Shown piece by piece: positions 24,242-33,335 of a stretch of DNA of 64,000 nucleotides. The DNA lies in contig NZ_CP143889.1 in assembly GCF_036417355.1 (NCBI RefSeq), forward strand, positions 558,001 through 622,000, given 5' to 3'. The notes under the pieces are model-generated. The model was not told the origin of the DNA. It made no database searches and was given only the letters and a program-made list of their open reading frames with translations. This DNA comes from Akkermansia sp. RCC_12PD (GTDB lineage Bacteria; Verrucomicrobiota; Verrucomicrobiia; Verrucomicrobiales; Akkermansiaceae). Each line of letters starts with the position of its first letter. Position 1 is the stretch's first letter. The translations under genes and the position numbers were made by a program.

Positions 24242-24282
24242 CTCGTGCGGCAGCATCACTCCGTTAGACAACGGAACGCCGG

Positions 24283-24341
24283 AAAAAAGAACCGTTTTTT
24301 GACGAAACTGTCAACCATCAATCAAAAAAACGGTTCTTTTC
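24283..24341. terminator. Bidirectional terminator after the terminase operon
   Basis: AAGAACCGTTTTTTGA (24287-24302) and TCAAAAAAACGGTTCTT (24322-24338) are inverted copies of about 16 bases around a 19-base loop. Each arm is flanked by a T run on its own strand (six T on the minus strand, four on the plus strand). It separates the phage-derived block from the L,D-transpeptidase gene. Confidence 0.8.
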
Positions 24342-24348
24342 CTTCCCT

Positions 24349-25980
24349 TCACCACATTTTGGCCCTCCTGTGGCGCGGCCGGACGTCTCCGGGTCCGTGA
24401 AGCAGTCCATGGGACCAGGCTTCCGCAAAAGTGCGGGCGGCGTCCGCCGTGTGGGAATGGGCGTCATGCACGGGACTTTCCGCCAGGGAGCCGCCCGTTC
24501 CGGGCAGTCTGGACCGGTACAATTCCAGATGCTCCACACCTCCCGGCTCCTCCTCCCCGCGCAGATTGCGCGCCCGCTCCTGGGTGCGGGCATGGAAGAA
24601 ACTGCGCTCCAGCAGTTCCCGGAACGTGTTGATGCCGCGCCATACATCCGTTGTCCGGGGCACCACGCGCACGTTGGCCAGCCCCAGCCTCGCCATGTTT
24701 TCCACGTAGGAAACACCGTGGGCGTCCCGGCGTGCGGCGTCATGGGGCAGCAGGTGGGCTGTTGCCGTCAGGCCGTATTCCTTTTCCCATTCCTTTATTT
24801 TTTCCGCATAGTGGGCCAGGGGCTGCTGGTTGGCGGCGTAATGGTCCAGCCAGTGGATGCTGTCCCCCATGACCTGGACCAGCCAGATAGCCGTATGGTC
24901 GCTCAGGCCCAAGTCCCACGCCGTGAATGTGGGAGCCTCCGGATCCGCCGGGAATTCCATCCCCACGCGTCCCCGCTCCCGCAGGGCCATGATGCGGCTG
25001 CCGTAAATGCTTCCCTCCTCGCCGATGGAGAATGCCTCCTGGGGAGTTCCCGGATATTCCTGCTTCATGGCCGCGCCCATCACGCGCGCCATGCGGGCAT
25101 ACCACCGCTTCTGCCCCGCGTCCAGCTTCACGCCCGTTTCCCGCTCCAGGGAAAGGAAGTAGGCATCCAGTTCCCTGCTCCACCTGCCGCGCCCCGGCAG
25201 GGAGTATTCTTCCTGGTCAAACCAGCTGAAGAAGAAGAACCGGAAGTCCAGCGGGGACAGCTCGCTCTTGCCCATGTTTTCCATGGCCTGCCGCGTCAGT
25301 TCGTAGTTCACGCCATAGCGGCCGCCTTCATGGGTGCTTTCCTTCAGGATAAAACCGCCGGGCGGCACGGTATTGATGGCTCCGGAACGGATTTCCCGCG
25401 CCCGCCACGGGGCATGCACGGAGACATGCGCCAGCTCGGAAACATGCAGGAACTGCATCGTGCCGCCGCGCAGGTTGGTGCCCACCCGGACATCGCTGCC
25501 GTTGGAGAAAGCCAGCCGGGTGAGAGCCGCCGTACAGGGACGCCATTCCCCCTTTTTTTCCACGCCGGACATGCGCTTGATTCTTTCCCCCAGGCGCGCC
25601 AGCGCTACATCCATGGCGGAGGGTTCCGGCGGCAGGTAGTCCAAGTGGTCCCACGCGAAGTGGAGCTTGGCCAGCTTTGCCTGGGCGTCAGGCAGGCTTT
25701 TATCAATAATGCCGCAGTGGAAGTTGGAACGGAACAGGCTCATGTCCAGCATCAGGAGGGCCACATACGTGGAGATGCCGAGCTGGCGCGCCTTCAGAAT
25801 GTCGTTCCGATACCACAGCCCTTCATGCAACCGCCTCTGGGCCTTGTTCATGGAGAAGCGCTGGAGCTGGCCCGCCTTGTTTTCTATCCAGTACAGGTGT
25901 TCCAGCCGCCAGAGCTGGCTGGACAGAACAGACTGCCACGGCAGACTCCACGATTCCGTCAAATGTTCATGGTTTTTCAT
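24349..25980 (-). CDS. Phage terminase large subunit (ATPase plus nuclease)
   Basis: A 543-residue protein with the layout of T4-type terminases. The ATPase part has a Walker A-like KARQLGIST (63-71), a Walker B region FLHVSELAH (177-185) with the SE in place of DE common in such terminases, and a coupling-motif-like KESTHEGG (213-220). The C-terminal RNase H-like nuclease has Asp356 in AWDLG, Asp414 in LPHDA and Asp513 in HTADAAR, the expected acidic triad. All key residues are present and the length is normal, so the gene appears functional. Terminases package phage DNA into proheads through a portal, yet no portal, prohead protease, capsid or tail gene lies nearby. Its start overlaps the 1,717-residue gene by 14 bases. 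Confidence 0.85.
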   Translation of the reverse strand: MKNHEHLTESWSLPWQSVLSSQLWRLEHLYWIENKAGQLQRFSMNKAQRRLHEGLWYRNDILKARQLGISTYVALLMLDMSLFRSNFHCGIIDKSLPDAQAKLAKLHFAWDHLDYLPPEPSAMDVALARLGERIKRMSGVEKKGEWRPCTAALTRLAFSNGSDVRVGTNLRGGTMQFLHVSELAHVSVHAPWRAREIRSGAINTVPPGGFILKESTHEGGRYGVNYELTRQAMENMGKSELSPLDFRFFFFSWFDQEEYSLPGRGRWSRELDAYFLSLERETGVKLDAGQKRWYARMARVMGAAMKQEYPGTPQEAFSIGEEGSIYGSRIMALRERGRVGMEFPADPEAPTFTAWDLGLSDHTAIWLVQVMGDSIHWLDHYAANQQPLAHYAEKIKEWEKEYGLTATAHLLPHDAARRDAHGVSYVENMARLGLANVRVVPRTTDVWRGINTFRELLERSFFHARTQERARNLRGEEEPGGVEHLELYRSRLPGTGGSLAESPVHDAHSHTADAARTFAEAWSHGLLHGPGDVRPRHRRAKMW

Positions 25981-28900
25981 ATTCCTGCATCAATTCCTTC
26001 AATAACACGCCCTCCCGCGTCATCGCCCTCAGGGCATCCGTTCCCCTGTCCAGCGGCAGCCGGAATGCCAGGGGATCATTCAGCACATGGGAAACGAAGC
26101 GCAGCCCCTGCACCATCACGGGATGGAACAGGTCCAGCCTGCCGCGCAGATAGTCTTCCCTCACGCCCTGTTCCTCATACAGCCTGATTACGTCTTCCAT
26201 GAAGCATCCCACGGCCTGGTCCGCATTCCACCAGTACCGTTCCTGTGCGGCGGCATCACCGAAGGTCTCCAGAATCCTGCCCAGGAAACGGCCGCGGCTT
26301 TCCCGCGCCACGGCGGCGGAAGGTTCTTCACCCGCCCCCGTAAAGCATTCCAGAGGAATGTAGGATTCCCGTTCAGAGACGGCGGGGCGGCCGTTCCCGT
26401 CCAGATAGACTCCGTTCCAGGCATGCACCACGTACGGCGCACGCGCCTCCTTCATGGGGCTTTCCGGAACGCCCGGCATCAGGCGGACGGTATGCCCCGG
26501 ATCATCCGGATCACGGTAAAGAACACAGGTGGCGTACATCGCATGCGCCTCTTCCGGGTCAGGCAGGAAGGGGAGCATGCCTCCACGTACTTCCTGCTGC
26601 CTCCGGTCCAGCATGTCAATCAGCACCGCCGCTTCATCCAGCGGCACCTCCCGCGTCCATGCGGACGTCACTCCCTCCGGAGCCGCTTCCGAATCCACGC
26701 GGTATTTCCTTCCCTGCCAGACGATGCCGGATTCCGCCGCTTCCGGACGGCCGGCAAAGTCACGCCTCACTGTCTCCAGCGTCTCTACCGCCCTGGCCAC
26801 ATCCGGACGACCGCGCCAGGCGGCGGGGGCGGAAACGCCGCGCCGTACGGAAAAGTCATCCTCCACGTAGGAGGGAGCCTCCAGAACCGGAGTGGGCAGA
26901 GAATCGTTCACCGTCCGCGGAAAGGCGTTTTTCGCGCCTCTGAACGGTTTGCGCACCAAATGCAGGTACAGGCCGGGACGGTCCGGGTCCGGCCGCCATG
27001 AGTTCAAATCCGGGAATTCCCGCAAGACGCCGGCCAGTTCCGCCATGCGCGCCGCCGCCAGACGCTCCGCCCGGCGGAGGGAACCGCCTTCATAACCATC
27101 CAGGGAAGCCAGAGCCCTTTCCAGGTCCGTCCGCACATGGACGGGCACGGAGGACAGAACATGTCCCGCCATCAAACTGTGAGCGTACCGCTCCATCATC
27201 GGAAGGCGGACTTCCTCACCCCCGTTCCCGCTCCAGGCACGTTCCGCCCGTATCCGCCCGTTCATTCCCACGGTTTCCCGCAGCATATCCAAAAATCCGG
27301 TATCCGCACCCTTTCCATCTTTCAGCATCCTGTTCAATGCAGCCGCGCGGCGGCTCAGTTCCGCGAGGGGCTGCGGGGCCCTTTCCGGACTGGCCGCGCC
27401 GTAACGCGCCCATGCGGCCACCGTTTCCGGCACGGCTTCATGGTCCAGACTGGCAAAGAAATATTCCTTGGAAAGCTGGGACAGCTCCTCGATCAGCTCC
27501 GTTTCTCCGGGGAACGTCTTGCGGCGCGGGACACGGCCCATGCGCTTGAGCATTTCCCAGGCCGCTTCCGGGGAAAGCTGTTCCGTACGCATCAGACGGT
27601 CCCAGACGACTTCCGCCTTATCCTCAATCAGGGCCAGGGGATTGGCCGTGTTATGCAGGCGCAGGCGGTGCATGACCAAACCCTTGGCAGTGGGCACGGG
27701 CTGGTTGTCCGCATCCACGCCCAGCCTTTGCACGCCGCCCACGTATTTGCCGTGGATGTCCATGCGCTCCCGCAGGGCGTCAGGGCTCATCAACTTTTCC
27801 GCGGCCACTCGGCCTGCGCCCGTCACTTCCAGCAGGTCTCCGGACCCGGAGGCTCCGCGGAAGCCGTAGCCCGCCCTCAGCATGTCGGAGACAGCCAGGG
27901 CCGTCAGACCGTCATACAGGTAGGGGAGACGCTCGCCGCGCGCATTTTCCAGACCGCCGGACAGCCTCAAATGCGTGGGGTCCCATTCCGGATGTCCGTT
28001 GACGGCATGCCACCGCCACCCGCGGATCAAATCCTTCTTGGCAACGCAGGCCGGGGAAAACATCATGGAGACATTCGCCATCAGGTCCGCCGCGGCTCCC
28101 TCCCGCGAGGAATGCCACGCCGACCATGTTCCCGAGGGATAGCGAACTCTCCACAATCCGTTCCCGCGGACGCCCGAGGACTGGAACAGGCTGGGCGTCA
28201 GGCAGGACAGGTTTTCCACGGCCTTGTCCGTACCGGGATAGATACGGGGGGCAGGCTCTTCCGGCCCGGCGGACAGCCGGTCCGCATCCAGCACGGAGGC
28301 AAATTCCGCCGTCCGTCCGGGAGAAGTTTCCAGATAGCGGGACAGCAGGCGGGAGTAACTTTCCACCGGCGTATAGCCGCGCCCCACGCAGACATCAAAG
28401 TCCGCCATGTTCGGCAGCACGTGGAACAGGCTGTTCACGTCCGCCTGGGCTCCCCATACGCAGCGGTTCATCTCCTGCAATTCGGGGCTGACGGACTGGC
28501 GCTCCCTGTCTCCCAGCCGGGACATCATCGCACTCATCCGGGACAGGGAGGAGACGAGCCCCTCCGGAGTGGAGGAATTCTCCAGCAGCTCCGGAGCGTT
28601 CAGCAGGGAGCTCCCCTCCTCCAGCCAGAGGCGCGCTCTGCCAGAACTGTATTCATCCCGGCAAAAGGACTGCCACAGCCTTCCGGCCACGTGGCCGGCT
28701 ACTTCCTCCTGGGAAGCGCCGTGCACGCGCTCCATGACGCCCTCATATACATTCGCACGGGCTCTTCCGTCCATTTCCCGCGTCACGGCGTCCCAGTCCT
28801 GCCGGGAAAACTTCACCGCGGCGCCCGCTTCCTCCGGATAAGCCAGCAGAAGCATTTTGTAAGGACGGGCGGCGCCCTGTTTCAGCCTTTCCGCCACAAA

Positions 28901-31120
28901 GGAGCGGCGCACGTCTTCCGCCCGCATGTCGTAATCCGTCTCATTGCGCAGACGCCACGGAATTTCCAGGCCGTTCCTGTTGCGGATCAGGCCCAGGTCC
29001 TCCGCCTCCTTTCGGCACAGGAATTCATACCAGGAGGAAAGGGCCTCCTCCGCGGAAGACTTTCCGGAAACGCGCTTGAGCGGAGAGCCCGGGGCGGGGT
29101 CCATGCCGTACGCCGTCCTTCCCTCCGCGTCCAGCGATTCTCCCACGCGAGGCAGCCCGGCGCGGAGCAGCCACCGGGAACGCACTTCCGCATGGTCCGG
29201 ATGCAGGGAAAGCTTCCTCAACGCTTCCGCGGATTCCGGAAAGTCAGCCATGCTCCACGGTTTGGAACGCACGGGGGAAGGCAGCTCCAGAAAATCCCGC
29301 ACCTCCCGTTCCGTCCTTAAAAACGGTTCTCCGCCCTCGCCGAGGGCGCGGGACCATTCCAACGCCTTCCCGGAAATATACAGGGAGCCCCATAGCGGGG
29401 AATTGCGCAGGGATTCCTGCAAGAGATCCCCGGCCCGGTACACGTCCTTTTCCCGCAGAATGCGGGCCGCCTCATCGTCCGGAATGCCGAACACCTTGAG
29501 AGGAGTCCCATCCCCCAGAAGGGAGGACGGATGTCGGAAGTGATGCAGGGCCGCCTTTCCCGCCCCAATCAGCAGGAAAGGCATCATCATGCCGGCCTCC
29601 CTCAACTGGTCTTCCGGGGAAAGCTGCCTCTGCTTCCACCCTTCCCAGTCCACGCCGGATTCCTTTCCGGTGGCCAGGCCGACCCCTTCCTGAGCCAGCA
29701 TGGGGGTCAGTTCCATCAGCTTGTTCTCCGCGGCCATCTTCACGGCATCCGCGGCAAGGGCGCCCGTTCCGGAAAGAACCGCTCCGGCGGCGGCCCCGGC
29801 ACCTCCCGCGGCACGCATGGACTGGAAGGAGCGCATGCCCTGCCCCAGCATTTTCTGGCCCAGCTTCGTCATTCCGAAGGAAAGGAGGGTGTTTGCTCCA
29901 CCGGACAGAACGGCCCCGTCCATCTGGGCGTCAAAGTCGCCGTCCGGATTCATGCGCCGCGCATCCGCCATATGCCGCCCCGTTTCCCCGGCCATCAGCA
30001 CGCCAAGCCCCGCGGGTCCGGCAAACGCCAGCGCCGTGGATGCGCCCTGCTGGGCCATGTCCACCATCATTTCACGGAACCATGGCGCATCCTTGCCCCC
30101 GCGCAGAGGGGCGAATTCCAACCGCGCAAAATTCCTCAGCTCTTCAAAACTCCGGGAATACCGGTCCAGGGCCTCCTTCGTTTTTCCGTCCGGCATGACC
30201 CAGGCCGCACCGTTAACGGCAAACTGGCCAACATTTTCCGCCGTCTCCGCAGTCCCGCGTTTCAGCGCGGACTCCAGAGCCGTCCTGAAACCGGGCCGGG
30301 AACGCATGTACGGAGCCATCATGCGAAACACCTTCTGCCGATCGTCGCCGCCCAGCCCCGCCAGACAATCCACGGCGCGCACGACGTCCGGAATGCCTTT
30401 CACCGGATTCCAATTCACCTGCACGGCAGGGAAACCGCCTTCTGGCGGCGCTTCATTGGCCACCAGGCCTTCCAGCCCCTTCCGTATCATGTCTGCGGCT
30501 TCCGACAGGCGGTTCCGGTCATCCAGCGCGTCGGAGACGGCCCTGCTCCTCATCTTCTCCGCCACGGACCGCAAATCCTCCGGCCAGCGGGAAACGGCCT
30601 CCAGTCGCCGTTCGTCCGGCTCTTCCGAAGTCCCCGCCAGGACCCGGTCATAAGCCTCCTGGTACAGTTCAAACAGCGTTTCCCGCTGGGAAAGGCGCAC
30701 CTGGTTGTGCTGGGAGACCGCCACGAACAACTCGTTGTCAGACTTTCCGGAAGCCCCGTACTGGCGCGCCACCTGTTCCCGTATCCGCCCCCACTCCTTC
30801 CGGATGCGTTCGCGCGGAATCCCTCCGGTGTCCGCCACCCAGGACTGCATCACGCAGGCGGCCACCCGCTCGCCATCCGCCATGCCGGGGGAGTACATGG
30901 CCTCCGCCTCACGCCGCACCTCCCGGGGGATGGTTGCCACATCCCCCGTCAGCACACTGTTCCAGTACTCTTCCCGCTCCGCCGCCTCGCGTCCCGCATC
31001 CTCCACAATTGAGGCAGGCGCGGCCTGTGCCGGAACCGCCTCCGTCTTCATGGTTTCCTCCGCCAGAGCCTCTTCCTGCAGGAGCGAGCTGCCCTGCCCT
31101 TCTTCCCATTCCGCCTTCAT
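25967..31120 (-). CDS. Giant 1,717-residue protein of probable phage virion origin
   Basis: Not recognised as a known family. The N-terminal 340 residues are charged and mostly helical (no signal peptide). Residues of about 350-530 are rich in Gly, Ala and Met with several hydrophobic stretches (for example ASTALAFAGPAGLGVLMAGE, GAAAGAVLSGTGALAADAV, MMMPFLLIGAGKAAL), which could insert into a membrane. The rest is long, charged and Trp-containing with no visible catalytic motif. Size, the membrane-active centre and the linked terminase resemble internal virion/DNA-ejection or polyvalent proteins of tailed phages; this is inference. The 5.1 kb frame is uninterrupted, arguing for selection. It starts one base after the stop of the 433-residue gene and overlaps the terminase start. 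Confidence 0.6.
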   Translation of the reverse strand: MKAEWEEGQGSSLLQEEALAEETMKTEAVPAQAAPASIVEDAGREAAEREEYWNSVLTGDVATIPREVRREAEAMYSPGMADGERVAACVMQSWVADTGGIPRERIRKEWGRIREQVARQYGASGKSDNELFVAVSQHNQVRLSQRETLFELYQEAYDRVLAGTSEEPDERRLEAVSRWPEDLRSVAEKMRSRAVSDALDDRNRLSEAADMIRKGLEGLVANEAPPEGGFPAVQVNWNPVKGIPDVVRAVDCLAGLGGDDRQKVFRMMAPYMRSRPGFRTALESALKRGTAETAENVGQFAVNGAAWVMPDGKTKEALDRYSRSFEELRNFARLEFAPLRGGKDAPWFREMMVDMAQQGASTALAFAGPAGLGVLMAGETGRHMADARRMNPDGDFDAQMDGAVLSGGANTLLSFGMTKLGQKMLGQGMRSFQSMRAAGGAGAAAGAVLSGTGALAADAVKMAAENKLMELTPMLAQEGVGLATGKESGVDWEGWKQRQLSPEDQLREAGMMMPFLLIGAGKAALHHFRHPSSLLGDGTPLKVFGIPDDEAARILREKDVYRAGDLLQESLRNSPLWGSLYISGKALEWSRALGEGGEPFLRTEREVRDFLELPSPVRSKPWSMADFPESAEALRKLSLHPDHAEVRSRWLLRAGLPRVGESLDAEGRTAYGMDPAPGSPLKRVSGKSSAEEALSSWYEFLCRKEAEDLGLIRNRNGLEIPWRLRNETDYDMRAEDVRRSFVAERLKQGAARPYKMLLLAYPEEAGAAVKFSRQDWDAVTREMDGRARANVYEGVMERVHGASQEEVAGHVAGRLWQSFCRDEYSSGRARLWLEEGSSLLNAPELLENSSTPEGLVSSLSRMSAMMSRLGDRERQSVSPELQEMNRCVWGAQADVNSLFHVLPNMADFDVCVGRGYTPVESYSRLLSRYLETSPGRTAEFASVLDADRLSAGPEEPAPRIYPGTDKAVENLSCLTPSLFQSSGVRGNGLWRVRYPSGTWSAWHSSREGAAADLMANVSMMFSPACVAKKDLIRGWRWHAVNGHPEWDPTHLRLSGGLENARGERLPYLYDGLTALAVSDMLRAGYGFRGASGSGDLLEVTGAGRVAAEKLMSPDALRERMDIHGKYVGGVQRLGVDADNQPVPTAKGLVMHRLRLHNTANPLALIEDKAEVVWDRLMRTEQLSPEAAWEMLKRMGRVPRRKTFPGETELIEELSQLSKEYFFASLDHEAVPETVAAWARYGAASPERAPQPLAELSRRAAALNRMLKDGKGADTGFLDMLRETVGMNGRIRAERAWSGNGGEEVRLPMMERYAHSLMAGHVLSSVPVHVRTDLERALASLDGYEGGSLRRAERLAAARMAELAGVLREFPDLNSWRPDPDRPGLYLHLVRKPFRGAKNAFPRTVNDSLPTPVLEAPSYVEDDFSVRRGVSAPAAWRGRPDVARAVETLETVRRDFAGRPEAAESGIVWQGRKYRVDSEAAPEGVTSAWTREVPLDEAAVLIDMLDRRQQEVRGGMLPFLPDPEEAHAMYATCVLYRDPDDPGHTVRLMPGVPESPMKEARAPYVVHAWNGVYLDGNGRPAVSERESYIPLECFTGAGEEPSAAVARESRGRFLGRILETFGDAAAQERYWWNADQAVGCFMEDVIRLYEEQGVREDYLRGRLDLFHPVMVQGLRFVSHVLNDPLAFRLPLDRGTDALRAMTREGVLLKELMQEYEKP

Positions 31121-31121
31121 A

Positions 31122-32423
31122 TTACTGTTTCTCCTTCCTGTTTTTCATGTCCCGGAAGCCGACCCATCCGGCATCCTGCATCCGGTTTTCCTCTTCAAAA
31201 ACCCGCTCCATTTCCGCGGCGGCATTCGCCGGATTCTTCTTCACGGCATCCAGCAGGGCCCACTGCACCCGCTTCCATTCCTCCACGGCCCGCGCATCCG
31301 TCACCGGTCCCCAGGCCCCGTTCCGGAACATGGAGGACAAGCGGCGGGAAGCCGCCCGGCGCACCTCCTGCGGCACCAGCTTCATCGCCTCCCGCCTCTC
31401 GGCCAGCATCTTCACCTGTCCGGAGGGAAGTCCGGAAGTGGCCACCTCAATCACGGCGTCCGTATCCCCTTCACCGCCGCAGTCCTCGTCAATCAGGCGG
31501 GTCATCCGGCACAGCAGCCCCTCGTCCGCCGGGAAGCTGATGCCGGAAAGCTCCGCCTCCCGCATGCGGTCGCGGGCATCCGCATAACGCCTCAACTGGC
31601 CGGAACTGACCAGGCCGTATTTCTCCGCATTCGCCAGCCCTTCGTCGCGCAGCATGCCGCCGCCGGCCACGGTACGGAAAATGGAATCCGCATACCGCCG
31701 CTTCAATTCCCCGTAGGCCGCTTCAGCTTCCCGGGCCACCTTCCTTTCCATTTCATTCAGGGAGGCTCCCTCCTGTTCCGCCCGGACGACGGGCAGAGCG
31801 GCAGCCGGGTCCCGGCGTACCTCTTCCACGGCCCGGTTCAGAGCAACCCGGTCGCGCGCGTCCTCCGCCATGCGCCCGGCTTCCTCACTGGTCACAAACA
31901 CGCCCGTCCCCTCTTCAATCCTGCGTTCCGCCAGTCCGGCATCCCCCTGCTCCACAGCGGACTCCACGCTTCCGGTCCAGGAACGGCGCGCCTGCTCCAC
32001 CTGGCCAAGACGGGACATCTTTTCCAGGTAAATGCTTCCGGCGGCGGCCAGATTTTCCCGCGCCGCCTCCACACGCCCCTTCACCCGGCCGGACATTTTT
32101 TCCGGCAGGTAGGAAGGCAACCTGTCCGCCAGAGCCTTCTTCCACCTGGCTTGCAAATCGTCCGCGGTGCCAGCGGAATCCAGCTCCCGCATCACATCCT
32201 GTTCAAAGCGGTAGAGGCCGTCCCGGGCCTCGGCCCATTGTCCGGCGTCCCTCACCTCCTGCATCCCGGCCAGCATGTTCCCTGCCGTTCCCGCTAAATC
32301 CGCCACCCCGGCGGACAGGCGGCGAACGCCTGCGGCCTGGGCTTCCAGCGCATCCAGCGGGATCATTCCGGACAGATCCGGCCCCATGCGCGACATTCCA
32401 AAATCCTGTATTCGTATAGCCAT
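31122..32423 (-). CDS. Helical 433-residue protein, probable phage structural/ejection partner
   Basis: No family recognised. The whole protein is charged and helical with long heptad-like stretches and several internal Ala/Arg/Glu-rich segments (for example MSGRVKGRVEAARENLAAAG, ERRIEEGTGVFVTSEEAGRMAEDARDRVALN). It has no signal peptide and no membrane helix. It begins MAIRIQDFGMSRMGP, reminiscent of short virion-protein starts, and it is first in a tight three-gene unit with the giant protein and terminase. Phages often encode such a coiled-coil internal virion protein beside a giant one. The functional label is inference; the gene is real by length, frame and spacing. Confidence 0.65.
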   Translation of the reverse strand: MAIRIQDFGMSRMGPDLSGMIPLDALEAQAAGVRRLSAGVADLAGTAGNMLAGMQEVRDAGQWAEARDGLYRFEQDVMRELDSAGTADDLQARWKKALADRLPSYLPEKMSGRVKGRVEAARENLAAAGSIYLEKMSRLGQVEQARRSWTGSVESAVEQGDAGLAERRIEEGTGVFVTSEEAGRMAEDARDRVALNRAVEEVRRDPAAALPVVRAEQEGASLNEMERKVAREAEAAYGELKRRYADSIFRTVAGGGMLRDEGLANAEKYGLVSSGQLRRYADARDRMREAELSGISFPADEGLLCRMTRLIDEDCGGEGDTDAVIEVATSGLPSGQVKMLAERREAMKLVPQEVRRAASRRLSSMFRNGAWGPVTDARAVEEWKRVQWALLDAVKKNPANAAAEMERVFEEENRMQDAGWVGFRDMKNRKEKQ

Positions 32424-32540
32424 GTTCTAATGGCTTTCAAGCTAGGGAGCGGACGGAACACCGGTCATCCATTCCAAACCGTCACTGTCTCCCTTACTTG
32501 CCTCTTGCCAAAACGGAGGCATTCCAACACAATCCCCTGC

Positions 32541-33335
32541 ATGCCCCGCATCCGTTTCATCACCGCCTACGACGGCCGCCCCTACCTGGGCTGGCAAAGC
32601 CAGCCGGGAGGCCGCACCGTGCAGGACAAGCTGGAACGTGCCTTTTCAACCCTTTTCGGGGAAGCCGTCCGCATCCACGGGTCCGGCAGGACGGACGCCG
32701 GAGTGCACGCCCTGGGACAGGTCTTCCACGTGGATGCGCCGGACACCCACCGCATTCCCGCAGACAAATGGCCTGCTGCCATCAATACCCGCCTGCCCAG
32801 CACCATCCGGGTCATCCATGCGGAGTACACGGGCCCCGGCTTTCACGCCCGCTTCAGCGCCACGGGGAAAACGTACCGCTACTGCATTTCCAGCGAACCC
32901 ATCCTGAACCCGTTTGACGCGGGCCTGGCCTGGCACCGTCCGCTGGCCTGGAGCCTGGACGCCCTGACGGAAGCCGCCGGGCTCTTTCTGGGGGAACACG
33001 ACTTTACGGCCTTTGCCGCCCTGAGGGGCAACGAGCCCCGCCCCATCCCGGAAGACTACTTCCGGCGCACCATTACCCGTGCGGACGTGAGGCGGGAAGG
33101 GAACCACACCTTCATCACATTCACGGGCACGGGCTTCCTTTATAAAATGGTGCGCCTCATGGCGGGCGCGGCCCATGAGGCGGCACGCGGGAAAATCACA
33201 CTGGAGGAATTAAACCGCCTCATCCGTTCCCCGCGCCCGGATGACAAAAGCCCGTTCTGCGCGCCGCCGGACGGCCTTACCCTGATGCAGGTGCATTACC
33301 CGGATTCCGTCCCGGAAAACAGGCCGGAGCAATAA
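32541..33335 (+). CDS. truA: tRNA pseudouridine(38-40) synthase TruA
   Basis: A 264-residue enzyme that isomerises uridines 38-40 in tRNA anticodon stems. The catalytic Asp52 is in GSGRTDAGVHALGQ, preceded by the typical FITAYDGRPYLGWQSQ start; later motifs are FHARFSATGKTYRY and the C-terminal GTGFLYKMVRLMAGA. The start at 32541 matches family length; the open frame upstream is not conserved-looking. Divergent from the phage-derived block, with 117 bases between, and convergent with nadD. Confidence 0.95.
   Translation: MPRIRFITAYDGRPYLGWQSQPGGRTVQDKLERAFSTLFGEAVRIHGSGRTDAGVHALGQVFHVDAPDTHRIPADKWPAAINTRLPSTIRVIHAEYTGPGFHARFSATGKTYRYCISSEPILNPFDAGLAWHRPLAWSLDALTEAAGLFLGEHDFTAFAALRGNEPRPIPEDYFRRTITRADVRREGNHTFITFTGTGFLYKMVRLMAGAAHEAARGKITLEELNRLIRSPRPDDKSPFCAPPDGLTLMQVHYPDSVPENRPEQ

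Follow-up and report, generated by a model that had tools for sequence, protein, structure and literature searches.

Gene transfer agents (GTAs), as set out in the available excerpts of PMC9662315, are built from particle proteins of caudoviricete descent, carry mostly random host DNA and deliver it to other cells; they are endogenised, often at multiple loci, their own genes exceed the capacity of one particle, and they are inherited vertically. The same excerpts place the genes of RcGTA at five loci. FpGTA was present in 12/12 Faecalibacterium genomes examined and is called, in the accessible part of the 2026 report, the first GTA from the human gut microbiome and also the first to show podovirus-like morphology (PMC12946183). 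Here we analysed a 64-kb window of contig NZ_CP143889.1 from Akkermansia sp. RCC_12PD that contains a cassette of phage-type genes. We consider it likely that this cassette is the packaging/ejection part of a domesticated podovirus-derived particle encoded over five loci, which would be a GTA or a close functional equivalent.

A three-gene cassette between host genes

The cassette (Table 1) is flanked by genes for an L,D-transpeptidase (PF03734, 4e-20) and truA (PF01416, 4e-35; start ATG at 32541, chosen by eye). The open reading frames (ORFs) of the 433-aa protein and the giant protein are separated by a 1-base gap and those of the giant and the large terminase (TerL) overlap by 14 bases. ORF calls and Pfam matches thus agree with a preliminary description, made without database searches, of three coupled intact genes between host genes. 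The strong bidirectional terminator that it placed at the end of the cassette is also consistent with the sequence, as an inverted repeat containing A/T runs folds better than its shuffled versions on either strand (z of -2.97 on the minus and -4.43 on the plus strand). No tRNA or Rfam matches were found in the window.

Table 1. Features of the cassette and its borders, in window coordinates.
Feature	Position	Strand	Reading	Basis
433-aa gene	31122..32423	minus	probable gp15-like internal (ejection) protein	open frame, first in cassette
1,717-aa giant gene	25967..31120	minus	probable gp16-like ejection protein	
TerL (large terminase) gene, 543 aa	24349..25980	minus	large terminase, dispersed clade	PF17289 and phrog_2
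Inverted repeat, TerL/L,D-transpeptidase interval	24278..24345		probable bidirectional terminator	RNA fold z
Divergent cassette/truA interval	32424..32540		probable promoter region	direct reading of sequence

The 433-aa protein had been described as a helical partner of the giant, and its predicted model is indeed composed entirely of helices (pLDDT 82.8). Eight of the 50 listed PDB entries matching this model are podovirus ejectosome, core or ejection proteins, at Z 4.6-7.5, where Z below ~13 is common among helical proteins. Foldseek returned no match of the model to the PDB at E<=0.001, a search of PDB sequences with the profile gave nothing useful (best E 0.08), and comparison with the prophage counterpart gave a probability of 4. 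Judging by the model, the protein is probably a gp15-like internal (ejection) protein.

In the giant, for which a Gly/Ala-rich centre had been reported, a Gly/Ala-rich stretch can be seen by eye around residues 365-480. Searches of PHROG and of phage records gave no match, and no effector domain was recognised in Pfam and PHROG searches. There were three weak matches (E<=0.001) to giant phage proteins, and comparison with prophage giants gave a probability of 88 and E 3e-6 at 4% identity. The structure model spans residues 1-1050, and this N-terminal part had no VIA-align match at Z>=8; two ejectosome/core entries were reached at only Z 3.5. From its place beside the TerL and 433-aa genes, together with the three weak matches, we infer that the giant is probably a gp16-like ejection protein. 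Both large cassette proteins would then probably be virion (ejection) proteins themselves. A nuclease-like domain, PBECR3, is present in the giant of a related prophage.

Virion genes at four further loci

With the homologues from whole-genome searches, the total is 11 genes, distributed over five loci of a single 3.17-Mb contig. Outside the window there are single homologues of short-tailed-phage virion genes: a portal, accompanied by three small neighbours, tail tube A, the major capsid, the tail nozzle and an internal virion protein; the genes of the four non-cassette loci include a scaffold-like gene. Family support comes from PF12236 (portal), PF19821 (capsid), phrog_394 and phrog_376 (tail proteins), a Bbp19-like protein and the internal virion protein; significant family matches of the portal, capsid, tube A, nozzle and TerL point to caudoviricete descent. 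The statement that the cassette comes without virion genes therefore holds within the window but not genome-wide, where portal, capsid, tube A, nozzle and internal protein genes lie elsewhere, and the label of an orphan module has to be dropped, since homologous phage virion genes occur at four other loci of the same genome. The preliminary description had also suggested looking for portal and capsid genes outside the window, both of which were found there, and had raised the possibility of support from phage genes elsewhere. This possibility fits the presence of portal, scaffold-like, capsid, tail and internal-protein genes that are conserved with the cassette.

The five loci sit among host genes rather than in a contiguous genome as in an intact prophage or phage, and they span at least 0.96 Mb even if the chromosome is counted as a circle, which would be far above the capacity of any podovirus head. 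The dispersed genes were found without any replication, integration or lysis module, and none of them could be assigned as a small terminase, tail fibre, lysis gene or regulator; the prophage small terminase had no match in the retrieved loci. In tblastn searches of the retrieved stretches, a 71-aa protein was present in 13/17 genomes and a winged-helix gene, which lies beside tube A, in 11/17. A cement-like protein adjoins the capsid only in genome G015. Comparison of the loci revealed no shared promoter motif beyond background: letter-shuffle controls had suggested a motif, but just as many words were shared among random segments drawn from the same genome.

Joint occurrence in the genus

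Among 25 Akkermansia genomes tested, the nozzle, portal, capsid, tube A and internal protein were all present in dispersed form in 17/17 genomes with the dispersed TerL, while the other eight had none of the five gene types or had prophage-type copies. The giant was confirmed in 16 of the 17 (G059 was left out). In a larger set of 59 genomes, the dispersed capsid was found in 42/45 genomes with the dispersed TerL versus 1/14 without it (Fisher p 1.8e-9); the three TerL-positive genomes in which a dispersed capsid match was absent are drafts (G012, G027, G036). Capsid flags were raised in the scan for G006, G010, G066 and G074. Matches flagged for stops were near full-length as ORFs (nozzle in G071, G017 and G069, portal in G009, internal protein in G022), and the G033 nozzle is cut by a contig end. 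As for prophage internal proteins, the G017 copy was not found and the G000 copy matched poorly.

A scan of genome contigs covered 52 cassette loci, 50 dispersed-type (one of them a fragment) and two of a 44% type. The 433-aa gene was in the same order at 45/52 loci, the remainder being mostly contig-end cuts or prophage type, and a giant ORF was present at 49/52, three of them short. The cassette genes thus do occur together in other Akkermansia, a check that had been proposed at the outset.

Selection and shared history

Purifying selection was evident in 61/61 comparisons, with dN/dS of 0.022-0.250 (0.12-0.20 for the giant). Of the host rows, 13/14 were kept, that of truA in G004 being dropped because of a wrong ORF. 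The giant frame is open in all species examined, as are the other two cassette frames, without the frequent stop codons in relatives that the preliminary description had named as evidence against it. The earlier argument for selection rather than decay is upheld by these results, and purifying selection and open frames led us to reject a decaying relic. Scattered phage genes are usually relics, and a truncated head-gene remnant does lie at another place in G071; yet neutral relics of an ancient prophage, dispersed by rearrangement, are hardly credible in the face of dN/dS of 0.02-0.25 in every comparison, frames kept near full length from species to species and genes that are jointly present or absent.

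The best conserved genes are those for TerL and the portal (dN/dS 0.03-0.09), both of which serve in DNA packaging. Their conservation, along with the lack of any recognised effector domain in the giant, argues against an injection device whose cargo is protein, such as the giant, instead of DNA. We regard such a device as very improbable, even though the two largest products of the cassette are probable ejected proteins and a related prophage giant carries the PBECR3 domain.

Pairwise distances of the eight dispersed families correlate with each other (r 0.885-0.991), with 0/999 permutations as high in 28/28 pairs; the set comprised 17 genomes (giant 15, 433-aa protein 16, nozzle 16), prophage copies excluded. 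Distances of the dispersed genes also follow those of two host genes in seven genomes (r 0.975-0.996; <=8/5040 permutations as high), a congruence measured as distance correlations rather than by full tree tests and on a small host set. On this measure the genes, at unlinked loci, are inherited vertically, congruent with host genes. Their loci keep the same host neighbours and places in close species, and have different neighbours in distant species.

Relationship to prophages and phages

TerL matches Terminase_6C (PF17289, 1.9e-6) and phrog_2, 'terminase large subunit' (8.8e-18), and PDB sequence searches with TerL and with its profile gave no useful match. In a quickly built tree, which has long prophage branches and no AU test behind it, 32 dispersed TerLs formed one clade, separate from eight prophage and five phage TerLs. 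Eight positions that we take to have motor or nuclease (catalytic) roles (K63, R65, G68, T71, E182, D356, D414 and D513) were invariant in 32/32 dispersed, 6/6 prophage and 5/5 phage TerLs aligned. This identity agrees with the first description, in which the ATPase and nuclease residues are in place.

All identities of TerL to phage records were below 60%, and 32-37% among the 40 matches listed. Pattern-based scans of IMG/VR yielded 0, 14 and 0 relatives; 13 of the 14 were at 37-51% identity (prophage type) and one, L325, at 64%, which adjoins a lambda-type terminase (PF05876) and portal (PF05136). We rejected a currently mobile phage on the basis of these TerL identities, the giant without a match and the few IMG/VR relatives. 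Also rejected was a split prophage with the cassette at one end, an outcome that the preliminary description had said would count against it: the genome has a complete-looking prophage elsewhere, at ~3.098-3.140 Mb, which has an integrase, portal, scaffold, small terminase, TerL, capsid and tail genes of its own.

Akkermansia genomes commonly harbour prophages that have homologous virion genes, the same virion type occurs in prophages of the genomes with the dispersed genes, and some prophage capsids are close (~70%) to the dispersed capsid. A split or helper-dependent element, whose dispersed genes complement a resident prophage or satellite or travel packaged with it, could draw on such relatives. 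We nevertheless find it quite improbable, as the prophage of the window genome has a full set of its own and many genomes with the dispersed system have no prophage-type portal or capsid match (e.g., G004, G059, G069, G076, G079). Resident prophages of the same type would also suit phage parts co-opted without a DNA-filled particle, for example capsid, portal or TerL as dominant decoys against phages or prophages, as would the portal locus that adjoins cas genes in one species set. However, the entire structural set is kept (portal, scaffold-like, capsid, both tail and core proteins) and the motor and nuclease positions of TerL are unchanged. A decoy would need fewer than all these parts, which makes this explanation unlikely.

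A probable domesticated gene transfer agent

Particle genes that are scattered yet intact in most related species examined point to a domesticated DNA-packaging or transfer device. Such a device was among the possibilities first raised, and the dispersed, conserved gene set fits it; packaging and transfer themselves would be as follows. The best reading is a vertically inherited GTA without a main structural gene cluster. Some cue would switch on all five loci together. The scaffold-like protein and major capsid would assemble a head upon the portal, around a core of internal protein, 433-aa protein and giant (gp14/15/16-like). TerL would then dock on the portal and fill the head with host chromosomal DNA, because, with the genes scattered, there is no phage genome to be packaged. 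A short tail, closed by tube A and the nozzle, would complete the particle, and cell lysis would follow. On contact, the internal proteins would form a conduit across the recipient envelope, through which DNA may enter and recombine.

A stronger claim is that most Akkermansia species have an active podovirus-descended GTA, dispersed to single-gene loci, chromosomal since early in the genus and driving recombination in A. muciniphila; we see this as evenly balanced. For the GTA reading itself, extensive recombination in A. muciniphila, reported in the available text of PMC9315967, counts in its favour, and the accessible portion of a three-donor virome study reporting gut GTAs, which makes no mention of Akkermansia, counts against it.

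Few GTAs are known, and if our reading is true, the Akkermansia system would have been domesticated independently, and would be the first GTA to be described from Verrucomicrobiota and one without a main gene cluster. It would provide a concrete mechanism for recombination among strains of a mucus-dwelling genus and candidate probiotic, and would indicate that particle genes are separable to single genes while retained as a set and that cluster-seeking finders overlook dispersed systems of this kind. The reading is directly testable in DNase-protected DNA of culture supernatants.

Comparison with known systems

The dispersed set shares the portal (PF12236), capsid (PF19821), phrog_394, phrog_376, Bbp19-like and internal proteins with T7-type podoviruses and Akkermansia prophages, and the predicted 433-aa model may resemble podovirus ejectosome and core proteins. 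It differs from both in that its genes are dispersed without a contiguous genome and its TerLs form a separate clade.

GTAs are fully endogenised, often at several loci, and the Akkermansia genes occupy five loci, which keep their places in close species. RcGTA of Rhodobacter capsulatus and relatives likewise consists of caudoviricete genes that are chromosomally fixed and vertically inherited (PMC9662315, available excerpts). Unlike in RcGTA, the capsid, portal, nozzle and terminase genes of Akkermansia are each at different loci, and the tail genes are of podovirus type. RcGTA retains a main structural cluster and has siphovirus-type tail genes. The energy-cost signature reported for alphaproteobacterial GTAs, a lower amino-acid cost, was not found in the Akkermansia set: fewer carbons were found in 13/24 pairs (p 0.86) and a lower cost in 14/24 (p 0.14), with higher GC at codon positions 1-2 in 19/24.

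FpGTA comes from another phylum, Bacillota (Faecalibacterium) as opposed to Verrucomicrobiota (Akkermansia). It is encoded by a main operon of 10.5 kb and a second operon of 5.5 kb, ~125 kb apart, whereas Akkermansia has no main cluster; it also has lysis genes, and its particles, which contain 8.4-9 kb DNA, are proven, whereas Akkermansia offers genes alone, among which no lysis gene was found (PMC12946183, accessible part). Compared by description, with genes alone on the Akkermansia side, the two systems are alike in belonging to a human gut genus, in having homologues of short-tailed phage genes and in occupying more than one locus (PMC12946183, accessible part).

Particle genes inside and outside the cassette

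The three coupled genes, all on the minus strand, were found where the preliminary description had placed them, with the same flanking genes (an L,D-transpeptidase gene on one side and truA on the other), and a probable bidirectional terminator lies behind the large terminase (TerL) gene. The terminase call also held, as TerL was assigned to a phage terminase family. TerL matches 427 of 50,697 phage records, and among the 40 matches listed, which include Lessievirus phages of Burkholderia, identity is 32-37%. With 64.1% G+C, the cassette (window 24349-32423) is richer than the window as a whole (58.6%) and than two stretches of the intact prophage (50-56%).

The predicted model of the 433-aa protein (46 sequences, pLDDT 82.8) consists entirely of helices. 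Eight of the 50 PDB entries listed by VIA-align for this model are podovirus ejectosome, core or ejection proteins (9k2v, 8vb2, 9jyy, 7eyb, 9bgo, 7k5c, 6yt5 and 9vvp); taken singly, no Z exceeds what helical proteins reach by chance, but the number of such entries may point to an ejectosome likeness. Eight viral models reach E<=0.001 against it; one is unnamed and the other seven come from uncultured Caudovirales phages. For the giant protein, a model of residues 1-1,050 (pLDDT 72) gave three matches with E<=0.001, each to a giant protein of a phage, but TM-scores were low. By position and sizes, the 433-aa and giant proteins are presumably equivalents of T7-type gp15 and gp16.

The genome is a single contig of 3,168,262 bases, in which the window occupies C1:558001-622000. 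In two relatives, particle genes accompany TerL: a tail-nozzle gene (phrog_376) directly follows it in G022, and an internal-protein gene (phrog_418) is near it in G015. Using these two proteins as queries, plus profiles made from the portal, capsid and tube A proteins of Akkermansia prophages, we identified in the window's own genome one homologue each of nozzle, portal, capsid, tube A and internal protein that lies outside the prophage described below. The portal and capsid genes, which the preliminary description had proposed to seek elsewhere in the genome, are both present and lie outside the window. The portal has three companions, which encode proteins of 71 aa and 293 aa and a Bbp19-like protein (PF25181); the 293-aa protein is termed scaffold-like because it follows the portal. 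For it and the Bbp19-like protein, family scans were run on the copies in genome G075. In total there are 11 particle genes in five loci, and even on a circular contig these would span no less than 0.96 Mb. No small terminase, tail fibre, lysis gene or regulator could be assigned to the set. A search for a promoter motif common to the loci found none.

Cassette genes and dispersed particle genes of the Akkermansia sp. RCC_12PD genome
Feature	Position	Strand	Evidence
433-aa protein gene	31122-32423 (window)	minus	open frame
Giant, 1,717 aa	25967-31120 (window)	minus	open frame
TerL	24349-25980 (window)	minus	phage terminase family match
Dispersed nozzle	2802323-2804758 (genome)		phrog_376, 4e-129
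Dispersed portal	3003435-3004979 (genome)		PF12236, 5e-139
Dispersed capsid	361165-362073 (genome)		PF19821, 1e-99
Dispersed tube A	3005560-3006102 (genome)		phrog_394, 9.5e-43
Dispersed internal protein	229198-229671 (genome)		phrog_418, 8e-4 (weak match)

The portal/tube A locus also adjoins cas2, cas1 and cas4 (PF09827, PF01867 and PF01930) and repeat-like sequence (L190 12785-15957, which corresponds to 3.007-3.010 Mb of the genome). The same locus has cas2 beside it in G004, and cas2, cas1 and cas4 in G071.

Co-occurrence across genomes

Copies were called dispersed or prophage-type by identity, score and neighbours. Among 25 same-genus genomes tested, 17 have a dispersed TerL (with the giant confirmed in 16) and eight do not. 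Dispersed nozzle, portal, capsid, tube A and internal protein were detected in all 17, and the Bbp19-like and 293-aa genes adjoin the portal in every one. A 97-aa winged-helix gene, a candidate regulator, follows tube A in 11 of the 17, as far as the stretches examined reach. Of the eight genomes lacking a dispersed TerL, three (G008, G014 and G026) had no match to any of the five other gene types, two (G016 and G064) had tube-A matches only, and three (G020, G013 and G025) had prophage-type copies.

Of 59 genomes of the genus, 45 carry a dispersed TerL (60% or more; a fragment in one of them), and five further genomes have prophage-type or partial TerLs only. The dispersed capsid is present in 42 of the 45 TerL-positive genomes versus one of the 14 others (Fisher p 1.8e-9); the single exception, G018, also carries the giant. 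The giant is present in 29/37 same-genus genomes versus 0/22 genomes from other genera of the same order. Of the 52 loci recovered by pattern-based scanning of 84,980 species genomes, 50 belong to the dispersed type. All 52 are titled Akkermansia or Akkermansiaceae bar four: uncultured bacterium (two), Verrucomicrobiales, and Muribaculaceae, this last locus being of the 44% type. The contig from the bin labelled Muribaculaceae (L299, CANQWS010000058.1), whose TerL is of the Akkermansia prophage type (44%), is probably misbinned; alternatively, it comes from a phage whose host range extends further.

Selection and history of the dispersed loci

The compared frames are open and near full length. 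The dN/dS comparison that the preliminary description had called for indicates purifying selection, with values of 0.022-0.250 in 61/61 particle-gene comparisons (eight genome pairs); 13 host-gene comparisons gave 0.007-0.224. Distances within eight families, some pairs of which are physically linked but most unlinked, correlate in 28/28 pairs (r 0.885-0.991; 0/999 permutations as high), and family distances track those of two host genes that adjoin the nozzle locus (r 0.975-0.996, <=8/5040 permutations, seven genomes).

Host neighbours were compared using ORF lists that may include spurious ORFs. G017 and G075 keep them at every one of the five loci, and G004 and G071 at each locus compared (four and three, respectively). 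G067 keeps them around the cassette, nozzle, capsid and internal protein, and G015 around the cassette and nozzle; in G019, G009 and G022 they are essentially not kept. The dispersal is therefore old, and loci were relocated in some lineages. In G060, a 65-aa internal-protein match lies just before the cassette and a capsid lies ~7 kb beyond TerL, perhaps as remnants of an ancestral cluster.

Relationship to prophages

A second TerL, 51% identical, is located in a complete-looking prophage at ~3.098-3.140 Mb of the same genome. This prophage also encodes a 2,409-aa protein, an integrase, a small terminase and portal, scaffold, capsid and tail proteins. No second match to the giant or the 433-aa protein was found in this genome; the prophage has an 863- and 2,409-aa pair after its internal protein, which is comparable to the 433-aa/giant pair. 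In the TerL tree, 32 dispersed copies form one clade (SH-aLRT 97), to the exclusion of eight prophage and five phage TerLs.

In a prophage of G075 (L168), the capsid shares 70% identity with its dispersed counterpart but the portal just 37% with its own, which could reflect either exchange between prophage and dispersed genes or a mosaic origin. A truncated phage head remnant in G071 (L345 8.9-11.4 kb; G071:C1:559-562 kb) retains, in usual phage order, a capsid 73% identical to a dispersed capsid, a cement-like protein, tube A and a 52-aa nozzle piece. In the viral contig IMGVR_UViG_3300022601_000527 (L325), a dispersed-type TerL adjoins a lambda-type terminase (PF05876) and portal (PF05136); a viral-contig collection has thus listed part of the cassette as viral.

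A putative gene transfer agent

A set of head, portal, tail and ejection genes that is chromosomally inherited, selected and too scattered to package itself fits a gene transfer agent (GTA). Among six GTA-defining features (PMC9662315), three were found in the sequence and one more would follow from gene positions, depending on head size. The dispersed genes do not show the energy-cost signature that alphaproteobacterial GTAs are reported to have (PMC7360931). Extensive recombination has been reported among A. muciniphila strains (PMC9315967). Among the titles and abstracts listed from an open-access library, which lacks most subscription papers and all bioRxiv preprints, there was no report of this system. 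The nearest system in biology is the Faecalibacterium GTA, FpGTA (PMC12946183); the main text of that paper does not mention Akkermansia. Some described GTAs have loci separated by hundreds of kilobases, including loci of just one or two genes (PMC11841831), and the kind of system is therefore already known; what would make the Akkermansia set a new version of it is that no main cluster is present, together with its phylum and its podovirus type.
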